This document shows positions 33,601-60,600 of a DNA stretch of 64,000 nt, in pieces. The position numbers and the translations under genes were made by a program. Source of the DNA: Siphonodentalium dalli (taxonomy: Eukaryota > Mollusca > Scaphopoda > Gadilida > Siphonodentaliidae); contig CP136064.1 of assembly GCA_032622095.1 (NCBI GenBank), positions 264,473,863 through 264,537,862 on the forward strand. Reading direction: 5' to 3'. The notes beneath the pieces were generated by a model. The model saw only the letters and a list, made by a program, of their open reading frames with translations, ran no database searches and had not been told where the DNA came from. The first letter of the stretch is position 1; each line of letters begins with the position of its first letter.

Positions 33601-36600
33601 AAATGTTCCAAATTTTCTAAGTCGAAAACCCCCCAAAAATATGGAAAAAATTATATTTTTTATTAGCTATATAGATGTTGCAAATCACCAACATGTTGGG
33701 AACAATATCCCAGAGTTTAAAATCTCTACATTTAAAACTGTAGGAGGAGTTGATTACACCTTGAAGGTACCCAATCTCATCTAAAAGGCAAAAATGTTCC
33801 AAATTTTCTAAGTCGAAAACCCCCTGAAATATATGGAAAAAATTATATTTTTGATTAGCTATATAGATGTTGCAAATCACCAACATGTTAGGAACAATAT
33901 CCCAGAGTTTCAAATCTCTACGTTTAAAACTGTAGGAGGAGTTGATTACACCATGAAGGTACCCAATCTCGGACGCACGGACACACGGACGCACGGACGG
34001 ACGAGGGTCATTTCTATAGTCCTCCGACGGAAACGTCGGGGGACAATTACGATTTTACAAAATCACTCAAGTGAATGAGTTAACCCTTTGCCGGGTTAGA
34101 ACGACATTTATGTTGCCGTATGGTTGGCGGGTGGAACGACATTTATATTGTTACGGTAGTTCTGTACTAATATCATGTTACTGTGTAAATAACTTCGAAA
34201 AAAAGTCTCCTAAATGAGAACTTTTAATATCTATCATACAAACGGATATAATTTGTATTATTTATATTGATTCATGATTTTAATAATGTTATAAGTATGA
34301 TTTTTTTCTAACAAAATGCCAATGTTACAATATAACTCAGTTAAATTGCAAAATTATATTCACCCATAAATACGTATTCATATAATTATGACATACTCAC
34401 TCCCCCCAAAGAGTTAATAGTAACTATTACATACGGCATCCTTCCTCGTCACTTCCGTCACGACATTCATTGACACCGTTACATTTGATGGCTTCTGGGA
34501 AGCACTGGTCATAGCTTCGACATTTGAATTGTCCAACATCGCAAGTGAAGGCTGAAAGAAAATAAGAGATGCTCTATCACAAGGAGACCTTCTACATCTC
34601 GACAAACTACTACACGCAGGGAGGATTAGCTCTGGTTTTAAAAAAATGGTGTGGCACCATCACGGTGATGTATATATAGCCATGGCACTTAAATCTATAG
34701 CGTGAAGTCATTCCCCGTAAGTTGATGACGTCAGACACAAGTTAACACTTCTATTAACCCATTCATGACAGGAGAATTAAAGATCCTGTGCCAGTGCATT
34801 CTCTTATATATGCGAGTCTCCAATAGGAAGCCTTGCATATATAAGAGAATACATTGGCCAATCAGTATTTACCTTGACCGTGTGAGCCAGTGCATTCTCT
34901 TATATATGCGAGTCTCCAACAGAGAGCATTGCATATATAGGAGAATGCACTGGCTTACAATGTCAATGTAAATATATTTAGGCAAATGTATTAACTTATA
35001 TATGTAAGGCTCCCTATGGGAGACTCACATATATAAGAACATGCATTGGCACAGGGGTTTCGCAAAATTTTAGGAAGCTCCAGTCATGGAATGGCTAAAT
35101 CTATGGCATGAAGTCATTCCCCGTAAGTTGATGACGTTAGACACAAGTGGACAGTTCTATTATTATAACGTAATTCTTTCTGTATATAGGCCTTCAGTTA
35201 TGAAGTGAATTAAAATTGAATTTGATATACTTTGATATTCACTTTATTTGAGCAGATTATTAAATACAAACTCAACTCAAACTCCAAACTACCCATAACA
35301 TGCACGCACCTCCTTATTTAATTATTTGGAGTGTGAAATTAAACTAAATAAGACAAATGAATTAACCCTTTCAGGATGGGAGCTTCCTGAGTTTTTGCAA
35401 AAACCTGTGCCAATGCATTCTCTTATATATGTGAGTCGACCATAGGTCGCCTCGCATATATATGAGATTGCATTGGCCTGACAAATTTTATAATATTTTT
35501 TATAATTATTAAAGAACGTAAGAAAAAATGAAAAAAATTATAAAAGATTGTTAAAGAATGTAAAAAAATATGATAAAAATTGATAAAGAATGTAAGAAAA
35601 AATGATCAAAAATTATCAATAATGATAAAATTGTTAAATAATGTAAGAAAAAATAATCAAAAATGATAAAATTGTTAAAGAATATAAGAAAAAACGATAA
35701 AAATTGATATAGAATGTAAGAAAAAATTATAAAATATGATAATAATTATTAAAGAATGTAAGAAAAAATTATAACAAATAATAAAAATTGTTAAAGAATG
35801 TAAGAAAAATTGATAATAAATGATAAAAAATTGTCTTTAATGTCTTTAATGTTGCGCCAGCACAGCTCCCGTCATGAAATGGCTAAAAGGCAGCATGCCG
35901 CTATTGTAATCAAATCAAAACTGCAGACGTCAAAGCGCTATGTGTATGATAACGTCACGTCATAGATTTAAGTCTCAGGGCTATATTTACATCGCTGTAG
36001 ATGGAGACACTTCGTTCTAAAAATCATCAGTAGACTTCAGAACAGGACATGCTAAATTTAGGTGTATTTAGAGGATATATAGAGTTTTGCGTGGACACCT
36101 AAAATTATCAAATAAGCTAAATGAGTGTAAGCGAGAGTGTAGCTCGAGCAAATTGTAACTATGCGCCGTCTACAACAGGTTCGATAAAAGATTAGAGATT
36201 ATGATGCAAGTTAAGTTCTGCATTTATTCTACACCATTGTGTCCGATAAGTTCAATCCATGACTGCCACCTTCATTGATACTTTAGCTACATTATTGTGA
36301 TTTTAAGTCTGATAAATACCCAGTAATGATCCGGGCATCACCCAATGTGGATCATTGACGTAATGTACGTCATATTTCTTGGCGATGTCAACAAAAATAG
36401 TTCCACAAGAGGACTACAATAGTATGTATTCAATGGCTGGGATTCCACTGAATAGATGTGAACTACATTAGTGGGTGTGGAATAAAAATAAAGATTTCCG
36501 TTGATTTACAGTTAAATCAGTAATGTCTCCATTCAGAAGCCCACTGATGACAAGCAAGAGGAAATAAGAACTGATTGAGATAAAAAAAAGATGGGGCACT

Positions 36601-39600
36601 CACGACAATCAGATTCGTCAGAACTATCGCGACACTCTCTGACTCCATTGCATACTGCTGATTGAGGTACACACTGATCGTGTGTAAGACATTTGAATTC
36701 TCTTGGTCCGCAGGTGAAAGCTGTGAAAGAAGACCATTGCTATATATCGACTCATTCATGGTTATTATTGTTATATTGACTCATTCATGGTTATTATTGT
36801 TATATATCGACTCATTCATGGTTATTATTGTTATATATCGACTCATTCATGGTTATTATTGTTATATTGACTCATTCATGGTTATTATTGTTATATATCG
36901 ACTCATTCATGGTTATATATTGACTCATTCATTGTTATATATTGACTCATTCATGGTTATTATTGTTATATATCGACTCATTCATGGTTATATATTGACT
37001 CATTCATTGTTATATTGACTCATTCATGGTTATTATTGTTATATATCGACTCATTCATGGTTATATATCGTCTCATTCATGGTTATTATTGTTATATATT
37101 GACTCATTCATGGTTATTATTGTTATATATTGACTCATTCATGGTTATTATTGTTATATTGACTCATTCATGGTTATTATTGTTATATATCGACTCATTC
37201 ATGGTTATATATTGACTCATTCATTGTTATATATTGACTCATTCATGGTTATTATTGTTATATATCGACTCATTCATGGTTATATATTGACTCATTCATT
37301 GTTATATTGACTCATTCATGGTTATTATTGTTATATATCGACTCATTCATGGTTATATATTGACTCATTCATTGTTATATTGACTCATTCATGGTTATTA
37401 TTGTTATATATCGTCTCATTCATGGTTATTATTGTTATATATTGACTCATTCATGGTTATTATTGTTATATATTGACTCATTCATGGTTATTATTGTTAT
37501 ATATCGACTCATTCATGGTTATTATTGTTATATTGACTCATTCATGGTTATTATTGTTATATATCGACTCATTCATGGTTATTATTGTTATATATCGACT
37601 CATTCATGGTTATTATTGTTATATATCGACTCATTCATGGTTATTATTGTTATATTGACTCATTCATGGTTATTATTGTTATATATCGACTCATTCATGG
37701 TTATATATTGACTCATTCATTGTTATATATTGACTCATTCATGGTTATTATTGTTATATATCGACTCATTCATGGTTATATATTGACTCATTCATTGTTA
37801 TATTGACTCATTCATGGTTATTATTGTTATATATCGACTCATTCATGGTTATATATTGACTCATTCATTGTTATATTGACTCATTCATGGTTATTATTGT
37901 TATATATCGACTCATTCATGGTTATATATCGTCTCATTCATGGTTATTATTGTTATATATTGACTCATTCATGGTTATTATTGTTATATATTGACTCATT
38001 CATGGTTATTATTGTTATATATCGACTCATTCATGGTTATTATTGTTATATTGACTCATTCATGGTTATTATTGTTATATATCGACTCATTCATGGTTAT
38101 ATATTGACTCATTCATTGTTATATATTGACTCATTCATGGTTATTATTGTTATATATTGACTCATTCATGGTTATTATTGTTATATATTGACTCATTCAT
38201 GGTTATTATTGTTATATATCGACTCATTCATGGTTATTATTGTTATATATCGACTCATTCATGGTTATTATTGTTATATATCGACTCATTCATGGTTATT
38301 ATTGTTATATATCGACTCATTCATGGTTATTATTGTTATATATCGACTCATTCATGGTTATTATTGTTATATATCGACTCATTCATGGTTATTATTGTTA
38401 TATATCGACTCATTCATTGCTATATATCGACTCATTCATTGTTATATATTGACTCATTCATGGTTATTATTGTTATATATCGACTCATTCATGGTTATTA
38501 TTGAATAAGAAATAATTCCTTTCATCACTCTGGGCGGGAATGGTATAATAACTAAGCCTGCAAATAGGGTGTCTGTCATTTGCAGAATGAGGTCACCAGA
38601 GGGTGAATTTAGAGACACTATCCTGCAAGGCGGTCTGGCGTCACCAAATTCACCCTCTGGGAACCTCATTCTGCTTAGGCATCAGGCTCAACTATGGGAG
38701 AACCATAATCAGATTGAATTTCCCCAGTTGCAGTTGGTGATTTACACCCATTAGTCACCAAAATTATGCATTTAATCTTCTGCAAATTAGGGGATATAGA
38801 AACTTCCCAGAAGGGAAAAAGTAACTAAAAACAATGTTAATTTGAGACTATAGATACTTCCCAGAAAATGAGGCCTAAGCAGAATAAGGTCCACAGAGGG
38901 TGAATTTGGTGATACACGACTAAGTCAACCCTGTGGGGACCTCATTCTGCACATGACAGTCTATTTGCAGGCTTACATATAAACCAGGGTAGAAATAAAT
39001 GGAATGAGTTTTATCTGAATGGAGAAATCTAAAAATAAAACAGCAATGGCCACAAGACAAAAGTGCATTTTAAAGACATAATATGGGCTTGTTTGGGTGC
39101 GTGAAACTGATAAGTTAGTACTCAGGCGTTATGCCAACCTGGGGACAGTAGAATTCTACTACTATCGCCGAAAATTCCAAATAAATCGATCATACCACTC
39201 TATAGAAAATGTCTTCTGAACTACGCTCAATTCACAATTGGATTCGGGACCCAACTATTGGCAATAAACAAACACAAATAAATTTGTTATCGATAGTCAA
39301 TGCATTTATATAAAGGGGTACTGTACACCATTTTCAATAAATTCCCGGTGATAACAACGATCTTATATCGATAGTGATTTGAGTTGAAGATGTATTCTGT
39401 AAACGTTCAGGTTAATAGGTTATCTTAATATCAAACTTAATAATTTGATATAAATTAAATTTATGGCTGGAGCCATAAATTAAATTACGAATTTCCGTGT
39501 GCAAGACGTAATCAAAATAATTCACGGATAGTGGATTGGGTAACGCATGGCACACGTGATCGTGTAAATATTATGTTGATACGGGGCGTAAACTCAAGCC

Positions 39601-42600
39601 ACTCACTGACTAGTGACTATACAATGATTTAAATGAGTATATGGGACCAGTATGCATATAATATAACATTTATTTGATACATTTGCTTGAAAACTGTCAA
39701 AAAAATACTTGATAACGACAATTGGTAATTTTGCATTACGGCTAATCGACCATCCGTAACATTACTTTGTACTCAACATACTTTAAAATAAAGGAAATCA
39801 GGTTACCTTATTCTACGACTCAGAGACTATAGAAACCAAACAACAACATTAGAGTACAGTATCCCTTTAATATATCAGAATGATTGACTTTGTTGTCAAT
39901 TTGGATTAATATTCTTTCAAAAATAACTACTTATCTAGAGTAAGATTATTCTCCATGTCTATTTGATCACCCAACCTGAGTGTTTCACATCAGCTTAAAT
40001 ATTGAAACCCAATTCGAGTGAGTTGACAAAATCACGATTTAGACTATCTGTGAACATTATTGATATTCATAATAAAACAAATACGATTCTTGCCTCTTTA
40101 ATAATAAATGGACAAAAAGCTACCCCAACAATTCATCTCGGATACAAGAAATTAATAAATATAAAGATAAAAAATGGGGGACTCACGACAATCGGATTCG
40201 TCAGAGCTGTCACGACATTCTCTGACTCCATTGCATACTGCTGATTGAGGTACACACTGATCGTGTGTAAGACATTTGAATTCTCTTGGTCCGCAGGTGA
40301 AAGCTGTGAAAGCAGACCATTGCTATATATCGACTCATTCATAGTTATTATTGTTATATATCGACTCATTCATTGTTATATATCAACTCATTCATTGCTA
40401 TATATCGACTCATTCATTGTTATATATTGACTCATTCATGGTTATTATTGTTATATATCGACTCATTCATTGTTATATATCAACTCATTCATTGCTATAT
40501 ATCGACTCATTCATTGTTATATATTGACTCATTCATGGTTATTATTGTTATATATCGACTCATTCATTGTTATTATTGTTATATATCGACTCATTCATTG
40601 TTATATATTGACTCATTCATGGTTATTATTGTTATATATCGTCTCATTCACGGTTATATATCGACTCATTCATTGTTATTATTGAATAAGGGACAATTCC
40701 AATCATTACTCTGGACTGGAATGGTCAAATAACCCAGGGCAGAAAACAATGGAATGAGTTTGACCTGAATGGAGAAATCTAAACATAAAACAGCAATGGC
40801 CACAAGACTAAAGTGCATTTTAAATATTGAAACCCAATTCGAGTGTGTTGATAAAGTCATGATTTAGTCCATGTGTGAAAGTTATTGATATTCATACTAA
40901 AACCAATGAGATTCTTGCTTCTTTCATAATAACAAAAATACCTTAATTTAGAACAACTTGACATTGAGCACCAAAAACTTAGTGCCACCGCACACGCTGC
41001 GATTAAAATCGTAAGTGGGGAAAATCGCAAGAGGAAGCATCCAATGCGCATGCCCACGACAATATCGTAGCCAAATCGTAGCAATCAAGCACTGTTTGAT
41101 TTTACCAGGAAAATCGTGGCGTGACCTTGGCAACGCGCGCGATCGTAGCTGTCACATGACAACTGTCGCACTTGTCATGTTGTAAATACCACGAAAAGAA
41201 AACATTCAAAAATGGCGCAAAGTTTACAAACTTCTTGCACTTACAAAAACGAGGCCACATTGGTGGAGATGTGGCACGGCAGGCAGTGCAGGCCTATACC
41301 ATATATCAGACAAGGAGTAGAGGGCTGCCGCAATTGTTGAAATTCAATTGGGGCAGCTGAGCCTGGAGTTGACAGGTACACAAATGTCAAAATATTCAAT
41401 TTCACTTGAACTTTCAACATCAACTTGTTAGTTTAGAAAATTGAGATACATGCCATGCATATGTATTTAGTTGCATAATGCGGAGAATGTGGTCTAACGT
41501 TTTGCTATCATGTGATCGATCACGTGGATAAAATCGTAGCTGCAAACATCGCACCACCGTAGCGTCTGCGGGCAAGCTACGATTTCTCCACCTACGATTT
41601 TCCCCACTTACGATTTTAATCGTAGCGTCTGCGGTGGCACTTAAGATATAAATAATTGTAACTTTCTTTCAATTACTCTTCATCATTCCATTAATTTGCA
41701 CTCAACAATGCAATGTCGTACTGAGTCCAGTTTACTGAATGGAGTGGTTTACAAGGAACAGGGTTCAGCAAAATGGTTTATAGTAGAACCACAGTCATCA
41801 TGGGAACCTATGTCATAATTTTAACAAAAATAATAATAACGCCTAGCAATTTCAACATTTTAGTTTTTTTCTATATTAATATCCAAAGATATCAGCAAAA
41901 GGCTATCCCAGCAATTCATCTCGGATACAAGAAATTAATAAAAATAAAGATAAAAAATGGGGGACTCACGACAATCGGATTCGTCAGAGCTATCACGACA
42001 TTCTCTGACTCCATTGCATACTGCTGATTGAGGGACGCACTGATCGTGTGTAAGACATTTGAATTCTCTTGGTCCGCAGGTGAAAGCTGTGAAAGAATAC
42101 CTTTGTTATATATCGACTCATTCATGGTTATTATTGTTATATTGACTCATTCATGGTTATTATTGTTATATATCGTCTCATTCACGGTTATTATTGTTAT
42201 ATATCAACTCATTCATTGTTATATATTGTTATATATCGACTCATTCATGGTTATTATTGTTATATATCGACTCATTCATGGTTATTATTGTTATATATCG
42301 ACTCATTCACGGTTATTATTGTTATATATCGTCTCATTCACGGTTATATATTGTTATATATCGACTCATTCATGGTTATTATTGTTATATATCGACTCAT
42401 TCATGGTTATTATTGTTATATATCGACTCATTCATAGTTATTATTGTTATATATCGACTCATTCACGGTTATTATTGTTATATTGACTCATTCATGGTTA
42501 TTATTGTTATATTGACTCATTCATGGTTATTATTGTTATATATCGTCTCATTCATGGTTATTATTGTTATATATCGTCTCATTCACGGTTATTATTGTTA

Positions 42601-45600
42601 TATATCGTCTCATTCACGGTTATATATCGTCTCATTCACGGTTATTATTGTTATATATCGTCTCATTCACGGTTATATATCGACTCATTCATGGTTATTA
42701 TTGTTATATATCGACTCATTCATGGTTATTATTGTTATATATCGTCTCATTCACGGTTATTATTGTTATATATCGTCTCATTCACGGTTATATATTGTTA
42801 TATATCGTCTCATTCACGGTTATTATTGTTATATATCGTCTCATTCACGGTTATTATTGTTATATATCGTCTCATTCACGGTTATTATTGTTATATATCG
42901 TCTCATTCACGGTTATTATTGTTATATATCGACTCATTCATTGTTATATATTGACTCATTCATGGTTATTATTGTTATATATCGTCTCATTCACGGTTAT
43001 ATATCGACTCATTCATTGTTATTATTGAATAAGGGACAATTCCATTCATTACGTTGGACTGGAATAGTCAAATAACCCAGGGCAGAAAACAATGGAATGA
43101 GTTTTACCTGAATGGAGAAATCTAAACATAAAACAGCAATGGCCACAAGACTAAAGTGCATTTTAAATATTGAAACCCAATTCGAGTGTGTTGATAAAGT
43201 CACGATTTAGAACATCTGTGAACGTTATTGATACTCATAATAAAACCAATCAGATTCTTGCTTCTTTCATAATAACGTTAAGCAAAAATACCTTAATTTA
43301 GAACAACTTGACACTGAGCACCAAAAACTTAGATATAAATAATTGTAACTTTCTTTCAATTACTCTTCATCATTCCATTAATTTGCCCTCGACAATGCAA
43401 TGTCGTACTGAGTCCAGTGTTCTGAATGGAATTGTCCCCAAGTGGTTTACAAGGAACAGGTTGCAGCGAAATGGTTTATAGTAGAACCACAGTCGTCATG
43501 GGAACCTATGTCATAATTTTAACAAAAATAATAATAACGCCTAGCAATTTCAACATTTTAGTTTTTTCTATATTATCCAAAGATATCAGCAAAAAGCTAT
43601 CCCAAAAATTCATCTCGGATACAAGAAAATAATAAATATAAAGATAAAAAATGGGGGACTCACGACAATCGGATTCGTCAGAGCTATCACGACATTCTCT
43701 GACTCCATTGCATACTGCTGATTGAGGGACGCACTGATCGTATGCAAGACATTTAAATTCTCTTGGTCCGCAGGTGAAAGCTGTGAAAGAATACCTTTGT
43801 TATTTATCGACTCATTCACGGTTATTATTATATATCGACTCATTCACAGTTTTATTATATATCGACTCATTCACAGTTATTATTATATATCGACTCAGTT
43901 ATTGTTGAATAAGGACAATTCCATTCATTACTCTGGACTGGAATGGTCAAATAACACTCCATGACTGGAGCTACCAGAAATTTTGCGAAAACCCTATGCC
44001 AATGCATTCTCTTATATATGAAAGTCTCACATAGGGAGCCTCCCATATATAAGTGAATGCATTCGCCTAACAATAATTACCTTGACCTTGTAAGCCAGTG
44101 CATTCTCTTATGTATATGAGGCTCCCTATGGGAGGCTCGCATAAATAAGAGAATGCACTGGCACATGATCTTTAATGCTGCACCAGCGCAGCTCCCTTCA
44201 AGAAAGGGTGAAATATTAAAACCCTATTCGAGTGTGTTGATAAAGTCATGATTTAGTCCATGTGTGAACATTATTGATATTCATAATAAAACCAATGAGA
44301 TTCTTGCTTCTTTCATAATAACAAAAATACCTTAATTTAGAACAACTTGACACTGAGCACCAAAATAATTTTAACTTTCTTTCAATAGCGCTTCATTATT
44401 CCATTAATTTGCCTTAAGCAATGCAATGCTACACTGAGTCCAGAATACTGAATGGAATTGTCCCCAAGTGGTTTACAAGGAACAGAGTTCAGAGAAAAAG
44501 TTTAGAGTAGAACCACAGTCGTCATTTGGAATCACAGGGCTAGGAACCTACGTCAACATTTTCAAGAAAATGGCGGCAAGATATAACGCCTGGCAATTTC
44601 AATATATTAGTTTTTTCTATATTTTCGACAGATATCAGCAAGCTATTGGACAAAAATCTATTCCAACAACTTATCTTGGATACTGTAGCAACTGAATATC
44701 TATAAAAATTTGTATGTAAGGAGTTTTTTGTTTTAAAATTGCGACCGAAGTCATTTGAACCCTTACATCTTTTCAATAAAAGCATCTCTAGTAAGTGGTA
44801 AAATACACCCTTTAGCCATTTTGAATTGTACTATCGCAAATTACAATAACAATTTGAGCTTACAAAGAATATCTGATATACCCCTAATAAATTATGTCCA
44901 GTGTTATTAGAATCAGGCCTGAGAATGTCATCTGTGCGGGGTAGCGTCACTTAATTCACCCTCTGGGGACCTCATTCTGCAAATGTCCGGCACATATTGT
45001 CAGGTTAGATTAGAATCGTTATTCTGCTATTAGTATTTTTCCTGTTAAGTAAGATGGTGAAAATCTAACAGTAAAATTAAATGCTAAAATTATTTCCAGA
45101 ATGACACAAAGAAAAAAAGACAGGAAAGGATTAAATCATCAAATAGAAGAGAAAAATAGACAAAAGTCTGCAAAAGTAAGAAGAAATTAGTGGATTTGAA
45201 GAAGAGACAATAGAAGATAAGAGGCTCTCATGTGGCACAATCAACCAAACTAGGTCATCACTTACACACTCGTGTTTCTTCAGCTATAAGAGGATCAAAC
45301 GTAAGACATCATCAACAGGTCTGCCATTTTGAAATTGTCGAAGGGCCATAAGGCCAAAGCAATTTTACTACTTTGTTTACAATCATCAAGGATAAAAACT
45401 CAAGAGGTACATCTATGAGAGCTGTGTATGAGTCGTGGCATAAAGAAATGTGTGCTTGAGTTGAACCCACGAACAGAAATTGAATTATGTCTGTTAATGT
45501 TAATGCACTTGCGTCGCGAAATAGCCACATAGTAAACATTCCAGGATGCATTAAATATTTGAGACGTGTGCTTGAGTTGAACCCATAAACTGAATTTGGC

Positions 45601-48600
45601 CAAAATCAAATTATGTTTGTTAATATCTCTTATCACCTCTCATAACCCTCCCCTTCTGTTTCTCTCTCTCTCGCAACCAAATACAATGATATATACACTA
45701 ATTGGATTATGTTTGTTAACCCTTTACCCAACAGAAGGGCCCTGTGCCAATGCATTCTCTTATATATGCGAGTCGACCATAGGTCGCCTCGCATATATAA
45801 GAGAATGCATTGGCTTAACACATTAACAATTATAAAATTGTTAAAGAATATAAGAAAAAATGGTAAAAAGTGTTAAAAAAAGATTTTTTTTAGGCCAATG
45901 CATTCTCTTATATATGCGAGGCGACCTATGGTCGACTCGCATATATAAGAGAATGCATTGGCACAGGGCATAACTGTAACCATCACAATGTGGTCAATGA
46001 GCCGGTTCCAATGATATCCATATTTGTATGGTTCTATTGAGACAGACCGAAGATATTTTAGGCTGTTGAAGCTTTATTTGGCCGGTTTTGGCCGGTTTGT
46101 TGGGTAAAGGGTTAATGTAATTACAATTACGTCGTGAAAAGACACACAGTAAACATTCCAGTAGGCATAAATCCTGGAAATTAATTGAGCAGGATTGGTT
46201 TACGAACTCATCCAAGAGACTCATTAGTAAAAGTCACTATCCAAATTTGATCAAGTCGGATTACGTTTGTAAAGAGCTATCGCGTTTATTTCACGAAATA
46301 GACAACTGATAAACAATCCAGGAGGCGTAACTCCTAGAAAAACATCTGGGCAAAAATGGTTGTCAAACCAAGGGAGTCATGAGTAAAAGCCAATTTCCAA
46401 ATTTTGATCAAAATCAGACTATGTTTTTTAGAGATACCCTGCTTACATCATGACATGGACGGACAGATGGACACCCTAAATATTGAAACTTACGACAATC
46501 GCTCTCATCTGTTCCATCTTCGCAATCGCTAAAACCGTTACATACGGAAGAACCAGGAACACACTGCTCATACTGAAGACATTTAAACTCTCCAGCCCTG
46601 CATCGTACGGCTGAAGAAAACATTGAAATAATACATCACTGACAAGGGAAATGAATCACAAGTTATACAAATTACCAAGAAATGCATAGGCCATTAAAAA
46701 TAAAAGGCTACTAAGCCACATGTACTTTATTTGGTGGCTTTTTTAGAAATGAAAATTTTTATTCTGGGAACAATCATTGAATCAGACTTTGCTTCCAGCT
46801 GTCTATGTTGTTAAGACACCAAGTTTTATTTGATTAGACACCAGAATATAAGTTAATTTGGAGTTTCAGCAAGTATATATGCAATGCAATTGATTCAAAT
46901 TTGAAATTCAAGATGGCTACTGGTGCTCAGGTTTTTTTTTACGAATTTAAATAAATCTTAGTGAGTACTTACGGCAACCACGTTCATCACTTCCATCATT
47001 GCAGTCTCGTCGTCCATCGCATTGGCGGTTAGATTCAATACAACGATCCTCTCGTGAGCATTTGAACTGGTTATCATTACAGCTGAATGCTGGAGTGAAA
47101 AAATTTAGCAGAATTAAGATTTATTGTAATTGAACATAGTACTATCTTCAAGCCTTGAAATAATGTGTCTGTCATTTTCAGAATGAGGTACCAAGAGGGT
47201 GAATTTAGTGACGCTACCCTGCACAGTGGGCTAGCATCACTAAATTCACCCTCTGGGGACCTCATTCTGCTTAGGCCTCATCTTCTGGTATCTAGTCTCA
47301 AATTAACATTGTTTTAAGTTACTTATTCCCTTCTGTTCAGTTTCTATATCCCTTAATTTGCAGAAGATAAAATGCATAATTGAGGTGACTAATGGGTGAA
47401 CACCACCAACTTCAACTGGGAATCTTCAATCTTATCCTAGGCCTCCCACAGCAGTTGAGTCCTCAGCAGAATTATGTTCCCAGAGGGTGAAATTGGTGAC
47501 GCTACCCCGCAATATGAGATAGGGTCACTAAATTCACCCTCTGGGGACCTCATTCTGCAAATGACAGGCACACTATATCAAGGCTTGACTATCTTTAGCA
47601 CACATAATTTTCCATGATACTATCTAAGCAGTTGAATAAGTACAGATTATGTATGAGAATTCACCATATGGGAACCTCATTCTGCTTAGGCTTCATCATC
47701 TCTGGAAAGTTTCTTTATTATCAAATATCTATAGAAACTTCTTCACATAGATTTTATTTCTTTTTAAGTTTAGTTTCTCTATATCCCCAAATTGGCAGAT
47801 GAAACTTTGCATAATTTAGGTTCCCAATGGGTGTACATCACAACATTCACCATTTGGGAACTTCAATCAGAGTCTATGTCTCCCATAGCAGATGAGACAA
47901 TGCAGAATGAGGTCCCCAGAGGGTGAATTTGGTGAAGCTAGCCTGCTACTCGGAACTGCGAGTAAGAATTATGTTATTTTCTCGCAAACACCCAAAAATA
48001 TAACCAGCAAAATAAAAAGATGCTTTCCTCATGGTACGTTAAGCTCTATTTCTATGTTCTATTCCAAATCTGTCCTGGAAACAGGTAAGTACTGTGAACA
48101 GTCCGATGATAAGCATCCTAATTTTGCACAAACAAGTAGCAAGATTTTTTTTTTCAAACACCTATTCGTCGGTGTCTCGGCATAAAATCTCACCGAACAT
48201 GGGTTCTATATTAAATACCTTTAGTTATCAACAGTTATGCATAGATGTTGAAATAAAAAATTGCTTATCAACCATAGATTTCACCATGATTTTTTTAAAT
48301 CAAAATAAACCACTTTTTATTCCTTTATAGACAATTAATATATGCAATCTATAAAATACAGTTTTTTTCTGTATTTTATAGCTATTTGTAGTCTTAAAAT
48401 TGGGATTTTTAAATTTCTGTTGTAGTTGTTGGAATTGTGACACTGAAGAGAATTAAATGCAGCTGAAATTATAAACTAAAATTAATACAATAGGCCAAAC
48501 AAAAAAAGATATTTGATTCTCAGGCAATTTTAAAAAAAAATCAATGCAGGATCGAGTTTTATTTTTATTTTTTATTTTTTTCTGCCCATAGTAAGCATGG

Positions 48601-51600
48601 GTAATTATACCTTCCCAGTTCCAGAAAATATAGGGATAACTTTGTAATGGATATAAACTAATTTAATCTGATATAAAGAATGACAAATTATGACATTGTA
48701 CTACCTGTACATCATATAGGGATTATCTAGAATGATATATATTTTAATTTTGGCACAATAATTTTTAACACTACATATCCGATTCATATAAAAATACGGA
48801 ACGTAAATACAGTTGAAACGAAAATATAAAGTGATCTTCCAATCTATCATAGAAAGTTTTGATTCACTTATTACACTGACTATTTAGAGACTGTATACAG
48901 TAATGCTCTAATTAATCGACCTCTTAACCAAAGCAGAATTATGGGTAACTTTTCAGGATTTAGTCGGAAATATGGCTTGTTGCCATTCATCGGAAAGCTC
49001 TCGGGGAGATTAATTAGAGCATTACTGTATGTACCGCAATGGATGATAGACAAATAACCATCATAAACATGGCTAATATACATGTACATCACTTGTAAAC
49101 TGCTCCCGTTTTCAATTGCAATAGCATAGCAAGTGGAAAAACTCTATCTTGCAGGGTTACTTACTTGCTGTGCAAAGGTTGCAAAGGTCAGGTTGATGGA
49201 CGACTCATTCAATATCCAACTTCCTGCTTTTATCGGAATATATCAACACATTTGACCAATAAACATGGGGGTTTGGACAGCCTGTGGTGACAATATACCT
49301 GATAGTTATCGTTGCCTATGGTCTTTTGTTGAAGACACAGTTGTATTTAGCTCCTATTCAATATTTCAAACATAATTAATTTCCGTGTGACAGTTTCCTA
49401 TGTTGTGTTACCAGTCTTCAACTATGGTTGAAATCCAAAATCAGAATAAAACGGTCCAACCCGGGCCATTTTTTTCGATGCGGCAATGCCTGAGAATCAA
49501 AACCCATTTTTGTTTGGCCTTATTTGAGTGTCTCATAGATTGGCTACATACCTTCGTAATTCATAATGGCTCTGATAGCAAATGTTCTGCGTCCAGTTTT
49601 GTGTATTTCTGTCCTCATGTCAATTGGAACATTGATCCTGATGGTGGCATTGTAAATTCCAGCGTATATCGTATCAAAATACTCATGGTCTTGCACCTTA
49701 CCATCTTCCTCGCGCGAGAAATCAATTACTCCCTCCTCGAACCTGTTAGGGTAGTAGATGCCGATGAAGTCACCTTCCTGGACGGGCACTTGGTAGGGTA
49801 GGTCAACACGTTGGCCACCTACTTCAGCCTCTGGTAGCTCAGTCCTGTGTATTAAGACATACTGTTCACCGATCTTCCTCCAGACGCTGGCGTAAGCGAT
49901 TCCGTATGGAATGACTCTGTAATACTCCCAGGCAGTCAGCCAGCCGTCACACGGGAAGACGTTTCCGTACATAATATTTGCCCACGTATCACCTCCAGTT
50001 CCTTGGATTCTTGCTGGGATTCGTCCGACAAACTTATCACACTCCTTGGCTAAAATGGTTACAGATTAGGATTAAATTTTACATGTAAATAGAAAGATGT
50101 TGACCATAAACTGTCTGTAATCATTTGATCAGAATAGTAGCTGGAATGGAATATCAATTTCCTAGATATTTAGATTTATCCGATAGTTAGCCCCTAAAAA
50201 ACCCGGCCAGAATTTTTTTATGAATGATACAAACAACATGGTAATTATAATGAAAATGAATTTATGGCCGGATTTAGTGTACATTACCGCTTTAACATCA
50301 TCTACTAAATTCAATTCGAGTCTCGCTAAAGCTCGGGTCGAATCAAATTCAGTGCACTTGGTTAACAAATTTCGTATAGAATTGCAACTCATTAGAGATC
50401 CTCTGTTTGTTGCACTAACATTTCTATATATTTTACAGTGATACATTTAAAGAGATGGCACTTTGTTCTTATGTTCATTATTGATAGTTCGATAATAATT
50501 TTTTTTCGCATATTGACCCATTGTTATGTAAACAAAATTGTTACAGTGATTTTCAACAAACAATACTAATTGATTAGTAAGTTCAAATATTTCAGTCTGA
50601 TTTTCAGAATATTTTTCAATGCTTTGACTTTTCGAATGTTTTGAATTTTATTCACAGTGAGGGAATCACGTGGTTTCGAGTTGATGAGTATCACGCATTC
50701 AAAATGGCCGAGGCAATCGCAAACGCGACCATAAATGAGAAAAAAGGTAAAAAAAAACTATGATATTGAATTATTACATAGTATTTTGGCAGCTATGAGC
50801 ATATGCTATACTATTTTTCAAACAAGTTGATACCTCATTTGTGTCCAAAGTTGTGCCCAAAGTTGTTTGCTCTAACAATCTGACCAAAGTTGTCAGTTGA
50901 AGGATTCTCCCAGATGTATCAACTTGTGTATTCCACAAACCTCCAACTGTCGTGTGACAGCCACGCTTCATTGAAAACACACTTCCCATTATTATTTGGA
51001 GAAAGGTATATAACTCGTGTGCAAAATAATTCTATGAATGGGCAATGCCATGTTTTCCAAGAAAGCCTATAAAATCGTGGATTGCCAGTAGCGAAACAAA
51101 CTGTCGGCCTGTGACTCGTGATTGTGTGTACCCCCCCCCCCCCCCACATCCCCCTGTACTCATCGATTATCAGTCACTGCTTGGTGATTTATGCAGAAAA
51201 CAACAAGATTGCTTCAGTGAGTAAACCTTTGGTTATTACATTCAAGCACTTTCAAGCATCTTATTTTGTATTTCAGGGAAAATTCAATGACTTTCAAAGA
51301 CTTGAAAAATCTGAAATAAAAATCAATCACTTTCAAGAAATTCAAATACGAACCCTGAGATAGTTCAGCACTTAGACAATATATGCCCACATGAATAATA
51401 AAAACTCAACTATAAATGCAAAAGACCCATAACTTACACCAGCCCAGAAAACACGTAAACAAGTAAAATATATATATATGTTCATTAAATCAAATTGAAA
51501 TAATCCTTGATAAAATTACAGATATTATTAAGTCGAGAGGAACTGAAAAATAATATAAAGAATGATGATATATGTTGCCCAACAATGGTGAAAGCAAAAT

Positions 51601-54600
51601 TATTCACGATTAATCATTATTCATCTGAAGATCGTTTTTATCAACCAACTCTCTAATACGTCCAATCAAAGGACACTAATGGAAATAAAGTTGCTGAAAG
51701 TACAACAATGCTTTCTTGTTACTGTTGGCACTATCACAATATCCAAATTGTCGTAAGTATCTTCAAAATTAATTTTATACCTGGAAACTATCTAAAAAGA
51801 ATTGAGAAACCTTAGTATATAGTAACAATTGAATAATGAATAAATAGCATCAAATGGAAATTCTTAAGAAAAAAATATAATAGTTGTATGACCTATTTTT
51901 AAAGAAAGATCTGCATAGCTTATATCTGAATTTTTAGCCTATTCTTCCAACTTCAAATTAATTTTTTACCCACCTTGTTCAATGAAACGCGTCAAAAATT
52001 GTGCAAAGGATGAATTCGGCTGTGCAAACAAAAGTCTGAACAAAAAACTCAAACAGCATTGTCACAATTAATCTAGCATCGTCAATGATATCTATCTAGC
52101 GAAGTGTTGATAAAAAGAAGAAAGTTGAGTGCACTTTGATGGAAATCAACAGTGAGTGAATTGCAGGGAGTGCAAAAAAGATGGCAGAAATAATAAGCAG
52201 AGTATGTGATTCTGGCCATGTGATCATTTCCAATAAAATATTTATAACCCAAAGTAAATACAAACTGTTTGAGGTCAGTTTTTACTGAGCTTTCATGTTA
52301 CCCAATAATTTGTGCATCTGTAATTACCAACTGTATTATGATGTATTGTCTTAACTCACGCTGATGCTCAGGCACTTTTCCACTGAAAAAATGTAGCATT
52401 CAACTAGTATTGTCAAAAATTCCAGCCGCGGAGATAATACAATTTCATAACCCATAATGCTTGAACTACGCACAATTGTAAACTAATACTCATCGATTTG
52501 GGATGAATTTTCACCAGTAAACAAACGATAACTATTCCTCAAAAAGATTCCTCATCGCATATAATTTATACATAAGAATGAAGTTGCGTGCATGCAGCCA
52601 ATTTGGATATAAAATTATGACAATAACTAATTTATTCTGTATTCTATTCAGTCACCCCAGCGGAGTGTTCTATATCATTGTATTACATGATCTGACCCGT
52701 ATTTCATTAAACCCATTTTATAATAATGATATACAATGGTCAATGTATAACAGGAAATAGTGCCAGGTGTACCCAAATGCATTATTTTTGCGCTAATGTG
52801 ACCTTTGACTTCCTGCTTGTCGTCTGTTTACATTTCGTACACTAAATCAATGTGTGTGACTATTGTTGACTTAGTTTGAACAAATATTTCTTTAAATTTA
52901 AGCCATTAAATCATCAAAGAGTCCTATTTATCTGGGTCTATTTCTTTAGTTTACACATGCATAGTTACATGAAACGCCTTATAGAAGCCGCTGTTAGTTT
53001 CATGTCCCAATTATTGATTTAAGTATATTTTATGGAGGTTTTGGATCGTGAAATAAATAGAATCTACAACTCATCCATAGTTTATAGCGAAATTTACAAA
53101 ACTCTTCCAGTAAATTAGGTCTGGACTCATTTTGTAAATTTCGCTATGAACCTGAGACTAGTTAGATCCTCTATTTAATGACAGCTTTGAAAATAAAGAA
53201 TGCAGTGCAGCAAAAGAAATAAACAATACATAACCCTGAATTTCATGATGGGAGCCACGCTGGTGCAGCATTAAAGGTCCTGTGTCAGTGCATTCTCGTA
53301 TATATGCGAGTCTCCCAAATATAAGAGAATGCACTGGCTTACAAGGTAAATATTGTTAGGCCAATGTATTCTTGTATATATGCGAGGCTCCCAATGGGAG
53401 ACTCGCATATATAAGAAAATGCATTGGCACAGGGTTTTCAAAAAATTGAATAAAACTCCAGTCATGAAAGGGTTAAACGGTTGAATTGAAGTTGAAAGAT
53501 TGAAAGATTAAAAGCATCGGAAGAATGGAAGGGCAAACGACTTGAATTGATTACCATACAAAGTCATTGTTTCTCTATCTTGTCCATACCGATTATGAGC
53601 GACACACTCATAATCCCCAAAATCTCGATCACTGAGGTTTCGTATCCTCAAATTAAGAGTGATTTCCTTCGCACCCTGTCGTACACGGACTTCAAACTTT
53701 CCCCGTCTTTCACGAATCTCAACCCCATTTTTCCTCCAAGATGCTACACCAATTGGATCAGCATGGACTATACATGTTAGAGTCACATCGTTTCCTCTGA
53801 ACTCGCCCAATCTTAGGTTGGGGAGTGTTACTTTTGGTGGCAGATTTGAGTCTAAAAATTGTTTCAAAATTAAAGATGTATTCTGGGTTCCAGATCTCTA
53901 GTTATAACAACATAAAAATATAAATTAAAGGTACTCAATCCGATTCGATGGTCCCCATATAATCAGATTCCAACAACAACACATTTATAGATATGCAGCT
54001 TCAGTGGTCAGAATCATTTAATAGCTCAAAAATAATGCTAACTGGGCCGCTAAGTCTTGATGATGAAAATTAATAGATTTGAAAAATCGATATCTGATAA
54101 CTCTGAGCTTTGTTAAGGTGTGTTCCTCAACACAAATCAAATATTTTTTTACCCCTGAATCCAAATAAATAGTAATTGACGGGCGCTTAACCCTTTCAGT
54201 GCCAGATCCGATTTTTGTATCAACCCATATTTCCTTGATCATTTTTCAAATTTGATCATTTTTCAAATTTATTGATTATAATAATGTGATACATTGATGG
54301 AAAGAGCTCTTAGAGCTCTTTCCATCAATGTATCACTTTATTATAATCAATAAATTTGAAAAATTATCAAGGAAATATGGGTCGATACAAAAATCGGACT
54401 TGGCACTTAAAGGGTTAATCGGATTATGCATCTTTAATATTGTTTTCTGCTTTGTTCTGTAGAAAAAATGCTGAAAACTAAATATGATGAACAAACTAGA
54501 CCTATAAATACCAAAAGAATATCATGTTGTTATTGAAAAATTAATCCATATTTTGTTTGGTGTCCACCTAAAACATAGAAAGGATATGAAATATCTATTC

Positions 54601-57600
54601 CTCCATTGAAAGAGGACTAAAATATAATCAGTACATGTACTTGTACAATAAGATCAAGTGGGTTTTTTCATTCAATAACCCCATACAAAACTTCAAACAG
54701 CAAATAAAAACAACACAGAAATTGAATAAAATATTAAGATAGAAACTTGCCTGCCTGCAGTCTTATTAAAACTAGACCTAATTTTCATTACTTTCAACTT
54801 ACGGTCTTGAGACATTCATGGAATAACTTATTTCAAACAGGAGAAATCCAACCAATACGCACAAGGCAATGCGTTGCTCGGCCAATCAATAACTGCCTGC
54901 AAATCCCATTACCTATTCACATTCTGCACTCAATAGTAATTATTCATACAAGCACTGCCCAATAGTTCTAAAATAAGTATTACCGAAGGTGGAAATGCTA
55001 GATGAAAGCGAGGCTACGCTAAAACAATGGCAGACTTTGACGAAATACAAATTCTCAAAATTGTAATTAAGAACGTTTTGAAGAAAATTGGTATTGATTC
55101 GCTGAAGCAAGAACAGGAGAATATTCTGAGGAGTTTATTGATAACCAGAAAAGATGTGTTAGCTATTCTTCCTACCGGTTACGGGAAAAGTCTGCCGCAT
55201 CAAATAACTCCAATGATTGTTGCCAATTTGAAAAGTAAACATTCAGATGTTGGTTTTGTGAAAAAGCTCCCAGAGAACTGTTCTGTTATCGTAGTAACAC
55301 CACTGATTTCGTTGATGAAAGACTAGGTCGAGCGAATGAGAAATATTTAAACGCCCAACTGGCTTTACGAGTTTACTGGGGTTGAAGCGACAGCCATTCT
55401 TTTTAACGCATGTTGGAATTGTCGCATGTCAATCAAAACAGTAAACAGGGCTATATTTGGATGAATATTAACGAGCTGTCACCAGAAGGGAATTCCCCAT
55501 TCATCGCGGAAATGAATTTAAGTACAGGTGTCCCAAGACTGAGAGTTAACTGTAAGGAAACCTTGGTCTAGTTATTACTAGACTTGCCTGCCTGCTGCAT
55601 TTGAAAATACAATTGTCTGAGAAATGTTAGACCAAGTCTTCTCATTTTTCTTGGGAAAAAGGTTGGAATGATGGTGTTTTGGACCGAGTCCTGCCCCGTT
55701 GCTCTTCTAAAATGGACTACACATGCAGCCTGGGCATTCAAGTAAACCCCTGAACCGCGATTAAACTGTCTTCAAAATGATATATCATTTACTGTGATAG
55801 AAAAAGGTAAAGTGATGATACGATCATTTAATGTATAGTTAACATGCATTATTCTGATAGTACGACAAATCAAAATTCTCTGGAAAACAAAGCTATGTTT
55901 ACTTATAAATCTCATTGCTTTGACATTTAACGGACCTCTGATATATGCATGTTTGATATCATTATGCTTGGTAAAGGCAACTCTCCATGTTCATATAAGC
56001 AAAGCGTCCATTTGACCTAATCAGAAGACATACAAGCAAGATAACTCCCGCCCATGATTCTGGGCGTAAAGTCTGTTATAACAGACTTTTAACGGACCTC
56101 TGATATATGCATGTTTGATATCATCATGCTTGGTAAAGGCAACTCTCCACGTTCATATAAGCAAAGCTTCCATTTGACCTAATCAAAAGACATACAAGCC
56201 AGATATCGTAATGCTTGGGAAGGGCTGCTCTCTATGTTCATATATGCAAAGCTTCCATTTGACCTAATCTGAAGACATACAAGAAAGATAACTCCCGCCC
56301 ATGATTCTGGGCGTAAAGTCCGTTATAAAAGAGTAACAGGATGGGAATTGTTCCGAAACATCATCAACCCAACCGATATCCCAAGCTGTTGTGGACCGAG
56401 AAGACTTGGTATAGAGAAACATAAGACTTATTTTTTTAGACCTAAGTAAGATCAATGAAAGAAAAATAGTGATAACGTAAGAGAACTTACGGCAGTTAGC
56501 CTCGTCAGATCTGTCAGAACAGTCAGGAGCTCCATTGCACCTCAAACTTCCAAGAATGCATGTACCGTCTCGGCACAAGAAGTTATTATTTCTACATGCT
56601 ACAAGTGGAAAGATCATTATGCACACAGCAACCATGCAAAGTACTAAAGGAGAAATCATGTCTAATGATAGAGAGAAGTTAAAGATATATTACAGTAATG
56701 CTCTAATTAATCGACTCCTTAACCACAGCAGAATTATGGGTAACTTTTCAGGTTTTAGTCGGAAATATGGCAACAAGCCATATTTCCGACTAAATCCTGA
56801 AAAGTTACCCATAATTCAGCTGTGGTTAAGGAGTCGATTAATTAGATCATTACTGTATGTACTATTCGGGTGCGTGAAACTAGTAAGTTTGTATTGAGGC
56901 ACTATGCCAACTGGAGGAATATAGCTTTCTAGTATAATTTCAAACAAAACGACTTTACCACTCATTGAAAACATCGTCTGAATTACGCGCAATTGTAAAT
57001 ATTTACTTCTCGATTCGGGACGCAACTATCTGCGATAAGCTATAAACGAAACCGATTTCGCCAGTCACTGTATTTAATTAATATATAAGAATGGCAGTGT
57101 ATGTTGTGAATTTGGATATAATATTTGTAAAAATTACGTGTTTGAGCAAGATTATTCTCCATTTCTATTTGATCACCCTACCGGAGTGTTTCACATCACT
57201 CTAATGATGCGACTTATCATTGGTTAACCCTTCCATGACTGGAGCTTCCTGAAATTTTGCAAAAACCCTGTGCCAAGCATTTTCATATATATGCGAGTCT
57301 CCATAGGGAGCCTCGCATATATAAGAGAATACATCGGCCTAACAATTTTTACCTTGACCTTGTAAACCAGTATGTTCTCTCATATATGCGAGGCTCCCTA
57401 TGGGAGACTTGCATACATAAGAGAATACACTGGCACCAGATTTTTAATATTGCGACAGCACAGCTCCCGTCATCAAAGGATTAAGTGCAAGCATCACGTC
57501 TCTTATTTTCAATCTATAAAATATGGCGGTCACATGCGAAGCGAAAGAAGTTTGACTTGTAGATATGTCAATAAAGATTTTGTTTTTTTGTCCGAATTTG

Positions 57601-60600
57601 ACAGGTTTGTCCTTATCGTAGAATTCATTGATAACAGATAGGTTGATTTGGAATATATCATTCATTACAACATAAAACTTATCAGTTGCAATCAGAAGCT
57701 CTGCGTTAACCCTTTCATGACTGGAGCTTCCAGAAATTTTGAAAACCCTGTGCCAATGCATTCTCTTATATATGGGAGTCTCCCATAGGGAGCCTCCCAT
57801 ATATAGGAGAATGCTTTGGCCTAACAATATTTACTTTGAAATTGTAAGCCAGTGCATTATCTTATATATGTGAGGCTACCTATGGGAGACTCCCATATAT
57901 AAGAGAATGCATTGACCCAGGATATTTAATGCTGCACCAGCGCAGCTTCCGCCATGAAAGGGTTAATGTAAGACACCAGTGTGAACAGTTTAACGCAGAC
58001 AAAGGATCGTCATCACAACTGACCAATGCAACACAGTTGTCTCAATGCCATTTCAGAATGAGCGCTTTTCATTTGGCAACTGAGTCGGCTAGAAAATATG
58101 GTAATTAAAAAAAGGTCATCTGAAATCATACTGGAGAGATATGGCATCATGGCAACCGATAATTGTCACGGTCATGACTTTTCTGTACGGAAAGGTGCCT
58201 TCATGCCGAAAAAGCAGATTATGAATTTAGGACTAATCGGCCAATATCACGATTATATGAAGTTTGCTTAGCTGCTGGCAAAACTGATATTGTTCATGAT
58301 GCAGTTTAACCCTTTCATGACTGGAGCTTCCTGAAATTTTTTGAAAACCCTGTGCCAGTACATTCTCTTATATATGCGAGTCTCCCATAGGGCGCCTCGC
58401 ATATATAAGAGAATGCATAGGCCTAAAAATATTTACATTGACTTTTTAAGCCAGTGCATTCTCTTATATATGCGAGGTTCCATATGGGAGACTCACATAT
58501 ATAAGAGAATGCACTGGCATTGGGTTTTTAATGCTGCACCAGCACAGCTCCCGTCATGAAAGGATTAATTTGACCTGCAGCTAAATAAAAGGCGAATATG
58601 TGATGTCTGCTTAGCTTCAGGCACAAACTGCTGCAGTTTATATATAATGCGTGTAAAATTAAAGCGAAGTAAGGCATTTGCAGTGGGTAGATGTAACAAT
58701 GATAAAAGTCTGTAAATCCATCGTTACAAAGAACAATGTGATAAAATAGATCTACTTTTTTCTCATATTGAATATAAATAATTCTCCTATTAAATAATAT
58801 TATCATGTTAAAACATCGTTTAATATGTAAACAATACTGTTACAGTTATTTGTCAACAAACATTGCTGATCGCGGAGGTGATTAAAATATTTAAGTCTAA
58901 ATTTATTTTTCGGAATATTTTTCAACACTTAATACAGCTTTTAACCCGCTTTAAACAAAGATATTAACCTGTTCCCAGGTCTATCTTCACAATTCGATTG
59001 GACTTTGATATTTTATTGGACTAATTGGACTTGATTGGTAATGTAGCTGTAACATTAATGTTTACATATAAACAATGGTTTTGACATGGAAAATCTCATT
59101 ATTGGAGAATTACTGACAATGACAATAAGAACATAGTAGTGATGTGCGGTTTTGAAAATTAATTTCGGTTTTGGTTTGTGTATGGTTTTTGTAGAAAAAC
59201 CAGGTTTTGGTTTCGGTTATGGTTTTACTCAATACACCAACAACAATATGCATAAAGCAGATGGTATAATATATGACATAAAATTTCCAGCCATTTTACA
59301 GTGATTTCCATAGTCGATGTGGCTGTATGTGCTATTATCGCCCATATGACATCCAAATGTTCCAAAATTGAAACTGCTAGTGGGGCCAAATAGCAGCTGA
59401 CAAATGTGTGCACTATAACCACACGTCTTGGAAAAGGTGACATTCAGCAACCAGAGGTGTCGGTTAATTGAAACCAGAATGGTTTTATAGAATATATCAA
59501 TTGTGGTTTGGTTTCTGAAATAAAACTGAAAGAAAACCAAGAAACCATAAAATGCTTGTTGATGATAGTTGTTTTACAGACATTGATGACTATTCACATG
59601 TACCCACGGCGAGTGCCTTCAGTCCCTTTAATGTTTCTTAAAAATGAAATACGCTTATAAAATATAGTATAATTTTTGTTCTGATTTAAGATCCCACATT
59701 TAATTATCACTTTATTCTGACATCCGTATAAACCTCTGGTAAAAGTTACCCGTAAATTAATAATTAAAATACATTAGATAAGATAGAGGGGATGAGAAGA
59801 AATTGAATGAATAAATGAGGAAAGCAGAACACAGAAGAAAAGAAGAGATTCATAAAAACACACCAAGTTGAAATAACCAGAAAGGTTCTAAAACAGAAAT
59901 CTATCTTTGTGTTTCAGTATGGCCATTAACCCTTCCGTAACTAGATCTTCCTGAAATGAGGTCCCCAGAGGGTGAATTTGGTGATGCCAGCCTGCTTTGT
60001 GGGATAGAGTCACCAAATTCACCATCGTGGACCTCATTCTGCTCAAGCCTAAATTCACCCCCTGGGGACCTTATTCTTAAAATGTCAGACACACTATATC
60101 CAGGCTCAATTGTGAAGGAGGGGGGGGGGGGGGGGGGGGGAGTGGAATATGATTCTAGTTGTACTAACTGTTTACACTTAGCTGTTTGCCAAATGTCTAT
60201 CAAAATTCTTAAAGGACTACTTGAGAAATTTGAAACAGAGTGAACATGCACTATTCCATGAGAGGAATCACTTCACGCAGTTCAACATCTCATCAGAACA
60301 AGCAGAGGTGCAAACAAAGAAACACTTACATGTACAGCCGCGTTCGTCAGCATTGTCAGCACAGTCTCTGTTTCCATCGCAACGCTGAATTCCAGATATG
60401 CAAGATTTATCGGGACACTGCCATTGGTCACTTCTGCAAGCTGTGTAGATAAGAACAAAACTATGTAAAGCATAAGTCTAATTTAGCACATGATTATTGG
60501 GAAAACTGTACCTCAAAACTCTTGAAGGAGACTGTTAACCCTTTGATGAAAGCCACGCTGGTACAGCATTAAAGATTATGTGCCAGTGCATTCTCTTATA

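Follow-up and report, generated by a model that had tools for sequence, protein, structure and literature searches.

A candidate uncatalogued module repeated within the perlecan gene of a scaphopod mollusc

The N-terminal half of a perlecan gene in Siphonodentalium dalli encodes three copies of a module, here called X, which sequence comparison leads us to regard as an uncatalogued repeated module in a lophotrochozoan perlecan. Perlecan is usually described as built from a few long-known modules. The third copy, X3, lies on the minus strand of the window, by which we mean the whole 64,000-nucleotide stretch of DNA that was analysed; X1 and X2 lie upstream of the window, and each is likewise a single, intact phase 1-1 exon. 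The initial annotation had described X3 as an unnamed domain spliced into perlecan domain II. We agree that the domain is uncatalogued, that its exon is symmetric and that it has no Pfam match. The description of one spliced-in domain has to be given up, as the same gene holds three copies.

We mapped the gene over the window plus 70 kb upstream by three means: a profile search based on LDLa exons of the same gene, a scan that scores splice sites and codons, and visual inspection. The map covers the N-terminal half, and the domain IV Ig array and the domain V LamG and EGF modules would lie below window coordinate 1. The scan missed X1 and the first halves of two Ig domains, all of which were read by eye, so further exons may be absent from the map. 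The features within the window, in the order of transcription, are as follows.

62348-63227, minus strand: split Ig domain, whose first exon, 63103-63227, was identified by eye and joins 62348-62489 in phase 0; Pfam Ig_3 at 4.3e-11 for the joined exons
56491-60440, minus strand: two LDLa exons upstream of the next Ig exon, cores 60438-60334 and 56596-56492; the second matches Pfam at 1e-13
53555-53851, minus strand: Ig (I-set) exon directly upstream of X3, phase 1-1; Pfam I-set at 1.7e-13
49552-50049, minus strand: X3 exon (copy of module X), 498 nt, phase 1-1, about 165 residues, with two conserved cysteines (C3, C33)
46973-47089, minus strand: LDLa exon directly downstream of X3, phase 1-1; Pfam Ldl_recept_a at 1.2e-10
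32129-46610, minus strand: eight LDLa exons that follow exon 46973-47089, starting at 46610, 43780, 42086, 40303, 36720, 34551, 32851 and 32245, phase 1-1; found with the gene's own LDLa profile
28240-29376, minus strand: split Ig domain, whose first exon, 29261-29376, was identified by eye and whose second is 28240-28384; Pfam I-set at 2.6e-11
23788-26793, minus strand: three LDLa exons starting at 26793, 25483 and 23916, from the profile search and the scan
22282-22569, minus strand: Ig exon, the last before the laminin region, phase 1-1; Pfam Ig_3 at 1.1e-18
4114-8389, minus strand: laminin B (IV-A) exons, the start of perlecan domain III; Pfam Laminin_B at 3.2e-8 and 6.1e-10, both over the cut-off

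From its 5' end, the gene begins with a SEA domain on two exons, followed by X1, nine LDLa modules, X2 and six further LDLa modules. Next come a two-exon Ig domain, two LDLa modules, a single-exon Ig domain and X3. After X3 there are nine LDLa modules, another Ig domain split over two exons, three LDLa modules, one more Ig domain, an EGF-like-looking exon and the laminin B exons. The joined SEA exons, upstream of the window, match Pfam SEA at 6.2e-10, over the cut-off, and all four Ig domains of the N-terminal half are confirmed by Pfam. There are at least 29 LDLa modules, counted as matches at E up to 1e-5 to the profile made from the gene's own LDLa exons; two of the 29 were scanned against Pfam, and both were over the cut-off. 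The EGF-like exon at 4114-4225 matches EGF_2 at 0.0012, below the Pfam cut-off, and the EGF-like-looking exon at 18675-18799 has no Pfam hit. From the SEA, LDLa, Ig and Laminin_B domains, in perlecan order, we identify the gene as perlecan.

This order of SEA, LDLa, Ig and laminin B is common to the gene described here and to known perlecans (vertebrate HSPG2, trol of the fly, unc-52 of the worm, and perl of Nematostella and Trichoplax), and a domain II made of LDLa and Ig modules is likewise shared. The numbers differ: the N-terminal half of this gene has at least 29 LDLa, four Ig and three X modules, whereas human domain II consists of four LDLa and one Ig (PMC6266596). Domain I is missing in the fly and worm perlecans (PMC6266596). 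For Trichoplax, one Ig and three LDLa modules are described besides SEA, and SEA was not found in Nematostella (PMC4398486). We found no description of an X-like module in the accessible portions of the open-licence literature, mainly on perlecan (including PMC4398486, PMC6266596, PMC6453901 and PMC5431905). With its three X modules and at least 29 LDLa, this gene shows an N-terminal half of perlecan far more plastic than model animals suggest.

Four of the LDLa exons, those starting at 43780, 42086, 40303 and 36720 (window 36604-43780), are near-identical, with 108-114 of 117 bases the same in pairwise comparison, and their sequences identify them as the product of recent tandem exon duplication. 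A minisatellite adjoins three of the four and is common to them. The longest open reading frame of the window, 309 codons on the plus strand (42028-43072), is a minisatellite read through, and we rejected it as a gene. An inverted mirror of the gene lies at C4:265139912-265220999, 0.55-0.69 Mb away. The comparison was confined to about 8.8 kb around X3, where the mirror differs from the window by 65 substitutions plus indels; a duplicated assembly haplotype or a very recent inverted duplication would be expected to show this. The X3 exon and its mirror copy differ at a single base of 498.

The X3 exon has an acceptor (...accattttag|CC) and a donor (G|gtatgt) in phase 1 at both ends, and its reading frame is free of stops across all 498 nt. 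It is in frame with the Ig exon (53555-53851) before it and the LDLa exon (46973-47089) after it. Acceptor, donor, phases and Pfam-identified neighbours thus agree with the earlier reading of a 498-nt phase 1-1 exon with consensus splice sites in frame with Ig and LDLa. So does the translation with the description of a low-cysteine module: it has two cysteines and contains RRTFAIRAI together with the second motif named in that description. The length of the open frame (173 codons) is by itself within chance for 64 kb of such composition; in 40 Markov-1 windows the longest open reading frame averaged 148 codons, with a maximum of 185. The exon obtained the highest score (72.2) in the splice-site and codon scan written for this analysis; there is some circularity in this score, as the 19 training exons of the scan included X2 and X3. 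What places the X3 exon beyond chance is the presence of two more intact copies in the same gene, which are 47% and 42% identical to it.

Module X occurs at six places in the 2.23-Gb genome, three in the perlecan gene and three in its inverted mirror. X1 follows SEA, X2 lies within the LDLa array and X3 sits between Ig and LDLa. Identity is 47% between X2 and X3, 42% between X1 and X3, and 48% between X1 and X2, and 54 columns are invariant across the three copies, both cysteines included. In particular, the invariant charged and glycine residues comprise G18, G19 and D20, E104, E105 and G106, D109, and D115. In all three pairs pN/pS is 0.43-0.46, and synonymous sites are saturated. The divergence and pN/pS argue for copies that are old and have been maintained under constraint. 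A recent insertion is at odds with copies that differ at 52-58% of their amino acids and are saturated at synonymous sites.

BLAST of the genome with X1, X2 and a consensus that includes X3 found no further copy at E < 1 outside the gene and its mirror. For X3 alone the threshold of the genome search was 0.001, and such searches score the best candidates only. One match on another contig (C1, E 2.5) was rejected as a copy of X; it contains three stops and sits in a tandem repeat.

A clear match of X to a known Pfam family was looked for, and Pfam-A returned 0 families for each of X1, X2 and X3 at E up to 10. NCBIfam and PHROGs gave nothing credible, the best being PHROG 26747 at 0.01 and AmpD at 0.13, each with one of the three copies. 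Sequence searches of the PDB remained at chance level (an F5/8 type C protein at 0.26 with X3; a viral VP3 at 0.11 with the three copies). Bacterial and viral collections yielded 41, 31, 36 and 9 pattern matches, none of them confirmed. The mollusc haemocyanin beta domain (PF14830) gave no match; control genomes gave none either, so nothing follows from this result.

Relatives of X are indicated within the same genome. A query modelled on similar animal modules, and composed after X had been read, reached at E 9.8 an exon on contig C9 with the pattern CCG...W...IWRPEGGNNYLLVGE; the E-values of this composed query against X1, X3 and X2 (5.5e-7, 6.9e-5 and 0.005) are not independent and were not used as evidence. 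As its own query, the C9 exon gave 19 genomic matches with E-values of 10 or less, nine of them, itself counted, at E up to 0.001, and none of the 19 is an X exon. Eighteen of these places were read (L036-L053; C1:253501812 was left out). Fourteen (L036-L047, L049, L051) show C-C-G or P-C-G and then W, and four (L048, L050, L052, L053) lie outside this pattern; since only sites with CCG or PCG passed the filter, relatives with neither could be missed. For a profile, 11 of the 14 were aligned and trimmed to about 60-75 residues, with L037, L046 and L049 omitted as near copies.

Comparison of the X profile with this profile by hhalign gave a probability of 80.3% and an E-value of 1.4e-5, collinear over 48 columns. 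The score was 33.7; none of 200 column shuffles did as well (mean 11.0, maximum 17.8), the reversed profile reached 15.9, and control profiles from the same gene reached 17.0 (Ig) and 12.4 (LDLa). Over the 48 columns the relatives and X have in common C-x-G, a conserved W and a hydrophobic pattern running to L-[VI], in the same order. In two relatives (L038, L041) a second half of the module is encoded by a downstream exon ending GDK[LI]GL. This second half was sought in three extended loci, in one of which it is missing, and in the other loci at their original extent. At the corresponding place, X reads GD-F-I-[GA]-[IL] against GD-K-[IL]-G-L in the two relatives. No continuation of the module beyond GDxIGL was found in the relatives. 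When the two second halves are added to the alignment, the match to X extends over 71 columns at 96.6% and E 5.2e-10, with none of 100 shuffles as good, although the probability and E-value are biased upward by the selection of the two halves for their GD motif.

Searches with single profiles or sequences gave a fainter signal. With the relatives' profile, HMMER ranked X3 first among the eight matches listed at E 0.019 (4,446 open reading frames searched), followed by a chance open reading frame at 0.041, X2 at 0.79 and X1 at 2.1. BLAST with X1, X2 and the consensus found no CCG relative at E up to 10. Taken together, the comparisons suggest that X is probably kin to the CCG...W...VWRP family, and the module is probably not an orphan, since the profile comparison relates it to a family scattered over the same genome. 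Several differences are apparent. The two followed relatives have an intron between the halves of the module, whereas X has none. Among the copies of X, the VWR motif is retained in X3 alone. The CC doublet is present in 11 of 11 aligned relatives, a count in which the filter favoured CC, whereas X has C-[DN] or L/G-C-[DN]; X lacks the doublet and we therefore call it a related branch rather than a member.

The relatives point to a wider module family, represented at 14 other genome sites that were read, and Pfam searches turned up no credible model of it. DUF1148 matched 1 of the 11 aligned relatives at 0.0025, which we judged to be chance, and the PDB returned a zinc finger at 0.31, also chance level. 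Pfam searches of the flanks of two of the loci (L039 with L056, L041 with L055; one strand, three frames) found no domain. One locus, L039, may hold a tandem pair of CCG modules.

A fold for X was sought with AlphaFold2, run on X3 as a single sequence without an alignment. The resulting model is of low confidence (pLDDT 44.5, pTM 0.45) and has strands at residues 24-33, 36-43, 51-59, 62-71, 79-88 and 94-98. The earlier description of the module as beta-rich is retained as probable. Structure matches to the X3 model, itself of low confidence, were weak and for the most part to mixed beta folds, with a best Foldseek E of 0.067 and a best VIA-align Z of 5.8. We discarded the Foldseek and VIA-align matches as evidence of fold, as they ranged over TNF-like proteins, carbohydrate-binding modules, Brr2, Asf1 and the SPOP MATH domain. 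A beta-sandwich fold is plausible.

We consider it fairly probable, as a joint reading, that X1, X2 and X3 are copies of an extracellular module with a beta-sandwich fold that entered the gene once by shuffling, was duplicated there and serves as a binding knob. X would have entered perlecan through phase 1 exon shuffling and would then have duplicated inside the gene while the LDLa array grew. Its predicted beta sandwich would carry one disulfide, C3-C33. Each copy may be a globular knob, spaced along the LDLa rod, with a putative affinity for proteins or glycans, and in the basement membrane the copies together would contribute multivalent contacts.

The main rival to binding is a mechanical role, in which X would be a spacer or stabiliser that separates LDLa segments and sets the length of the rod or its resistance to proteases, with no ligand of its own. 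The positions of the copies, between other modules (after SEA, in the LDLa array and at an Ig/LDLa junction), would suit such a role. However, the 54 columns kept invariant at 42-48% identity include charged and glycine residues that need not belong to the core and so hint at more than a spacer, which is suggestive only. We prefer binding because the conserved residues are not just core-like, and regard a pure spacer as unlikely, though still a serious competitor.

A more specific form of binding, in which X would be a carbohydrate-binding module for glycosaminoglycans or other matrix glycans, seems to us a good deal less likely than the spacer. The host protein is a heparan sulfate proteoglycan, and several of the weak Foldseek matches are carbohydrate-binding modules of families 16 and 32. 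However, these matches have E-values of 0.13 or more and TM-scores of about 0.16-0.25, come from the low-confidence model, and appear side by side with TNF-like and antibody folds. The copies of X are also net acidic (13-18 K+R, 21-24 D+E), which speaks against heparin binding. Very improbable is a third alternative, in which the exon would be part of a different transcript, or a relic in decay, and absent from mature perlecan: X1 did not appear above threshold in the exon scan and had its splice sites assigned by eye, but frame, both splice sites and phase are intact in three diverged copies, amino-acid changes have been held back relative to synonymous ones, and the mirror X3 exon is changed at a single base in 498.

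Returning to the binding module, we put forward a broader version tentatively and with considerable doubt: X may be a conserved module that defines the perlecans of lophotrochozoans, recruited once and multiplied, which would provide multivalent binding absent from the perlecans of vertebrates, fly and worm. If true, X would be a previously unrecognised extracellular domain and would give the lophotrochozoan clade a new binding activity in the basement membrane.

Some further observations concern other parts of the genome. Contig C7 carries a cluster of Hox-type homeodomains, in which one homeodomain is followed by NNLAKLTGPD; the Hox query itself contained KLTGP, and NNLAKLTGPD was read from the genome's own letters. 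KLTGP behind a homeodomain is a signature of Lox5 in lophotrochozoans and platyhelminths (PMC5431905). By this sign the genome is of lophotrochozoan or platyhelminth type, and lophotrochozoan is meant here in that broad sense. Two homeodomain exons within the cluster, at C7:77673392 (L063) and 77720570 (L062), have identical translations and lie 47 kb apart, and the pair is perhaps another duplicated haplotype. Near-identical open reading frames also occur on two different contigs, at C8:29490343-29493594 (L030) and C3:146753547-146756798 (L031). We take them to resemble a deoxynucleoside kinase from the motif EGNIGAGKTT, and they are possibly carried by a mobile element.
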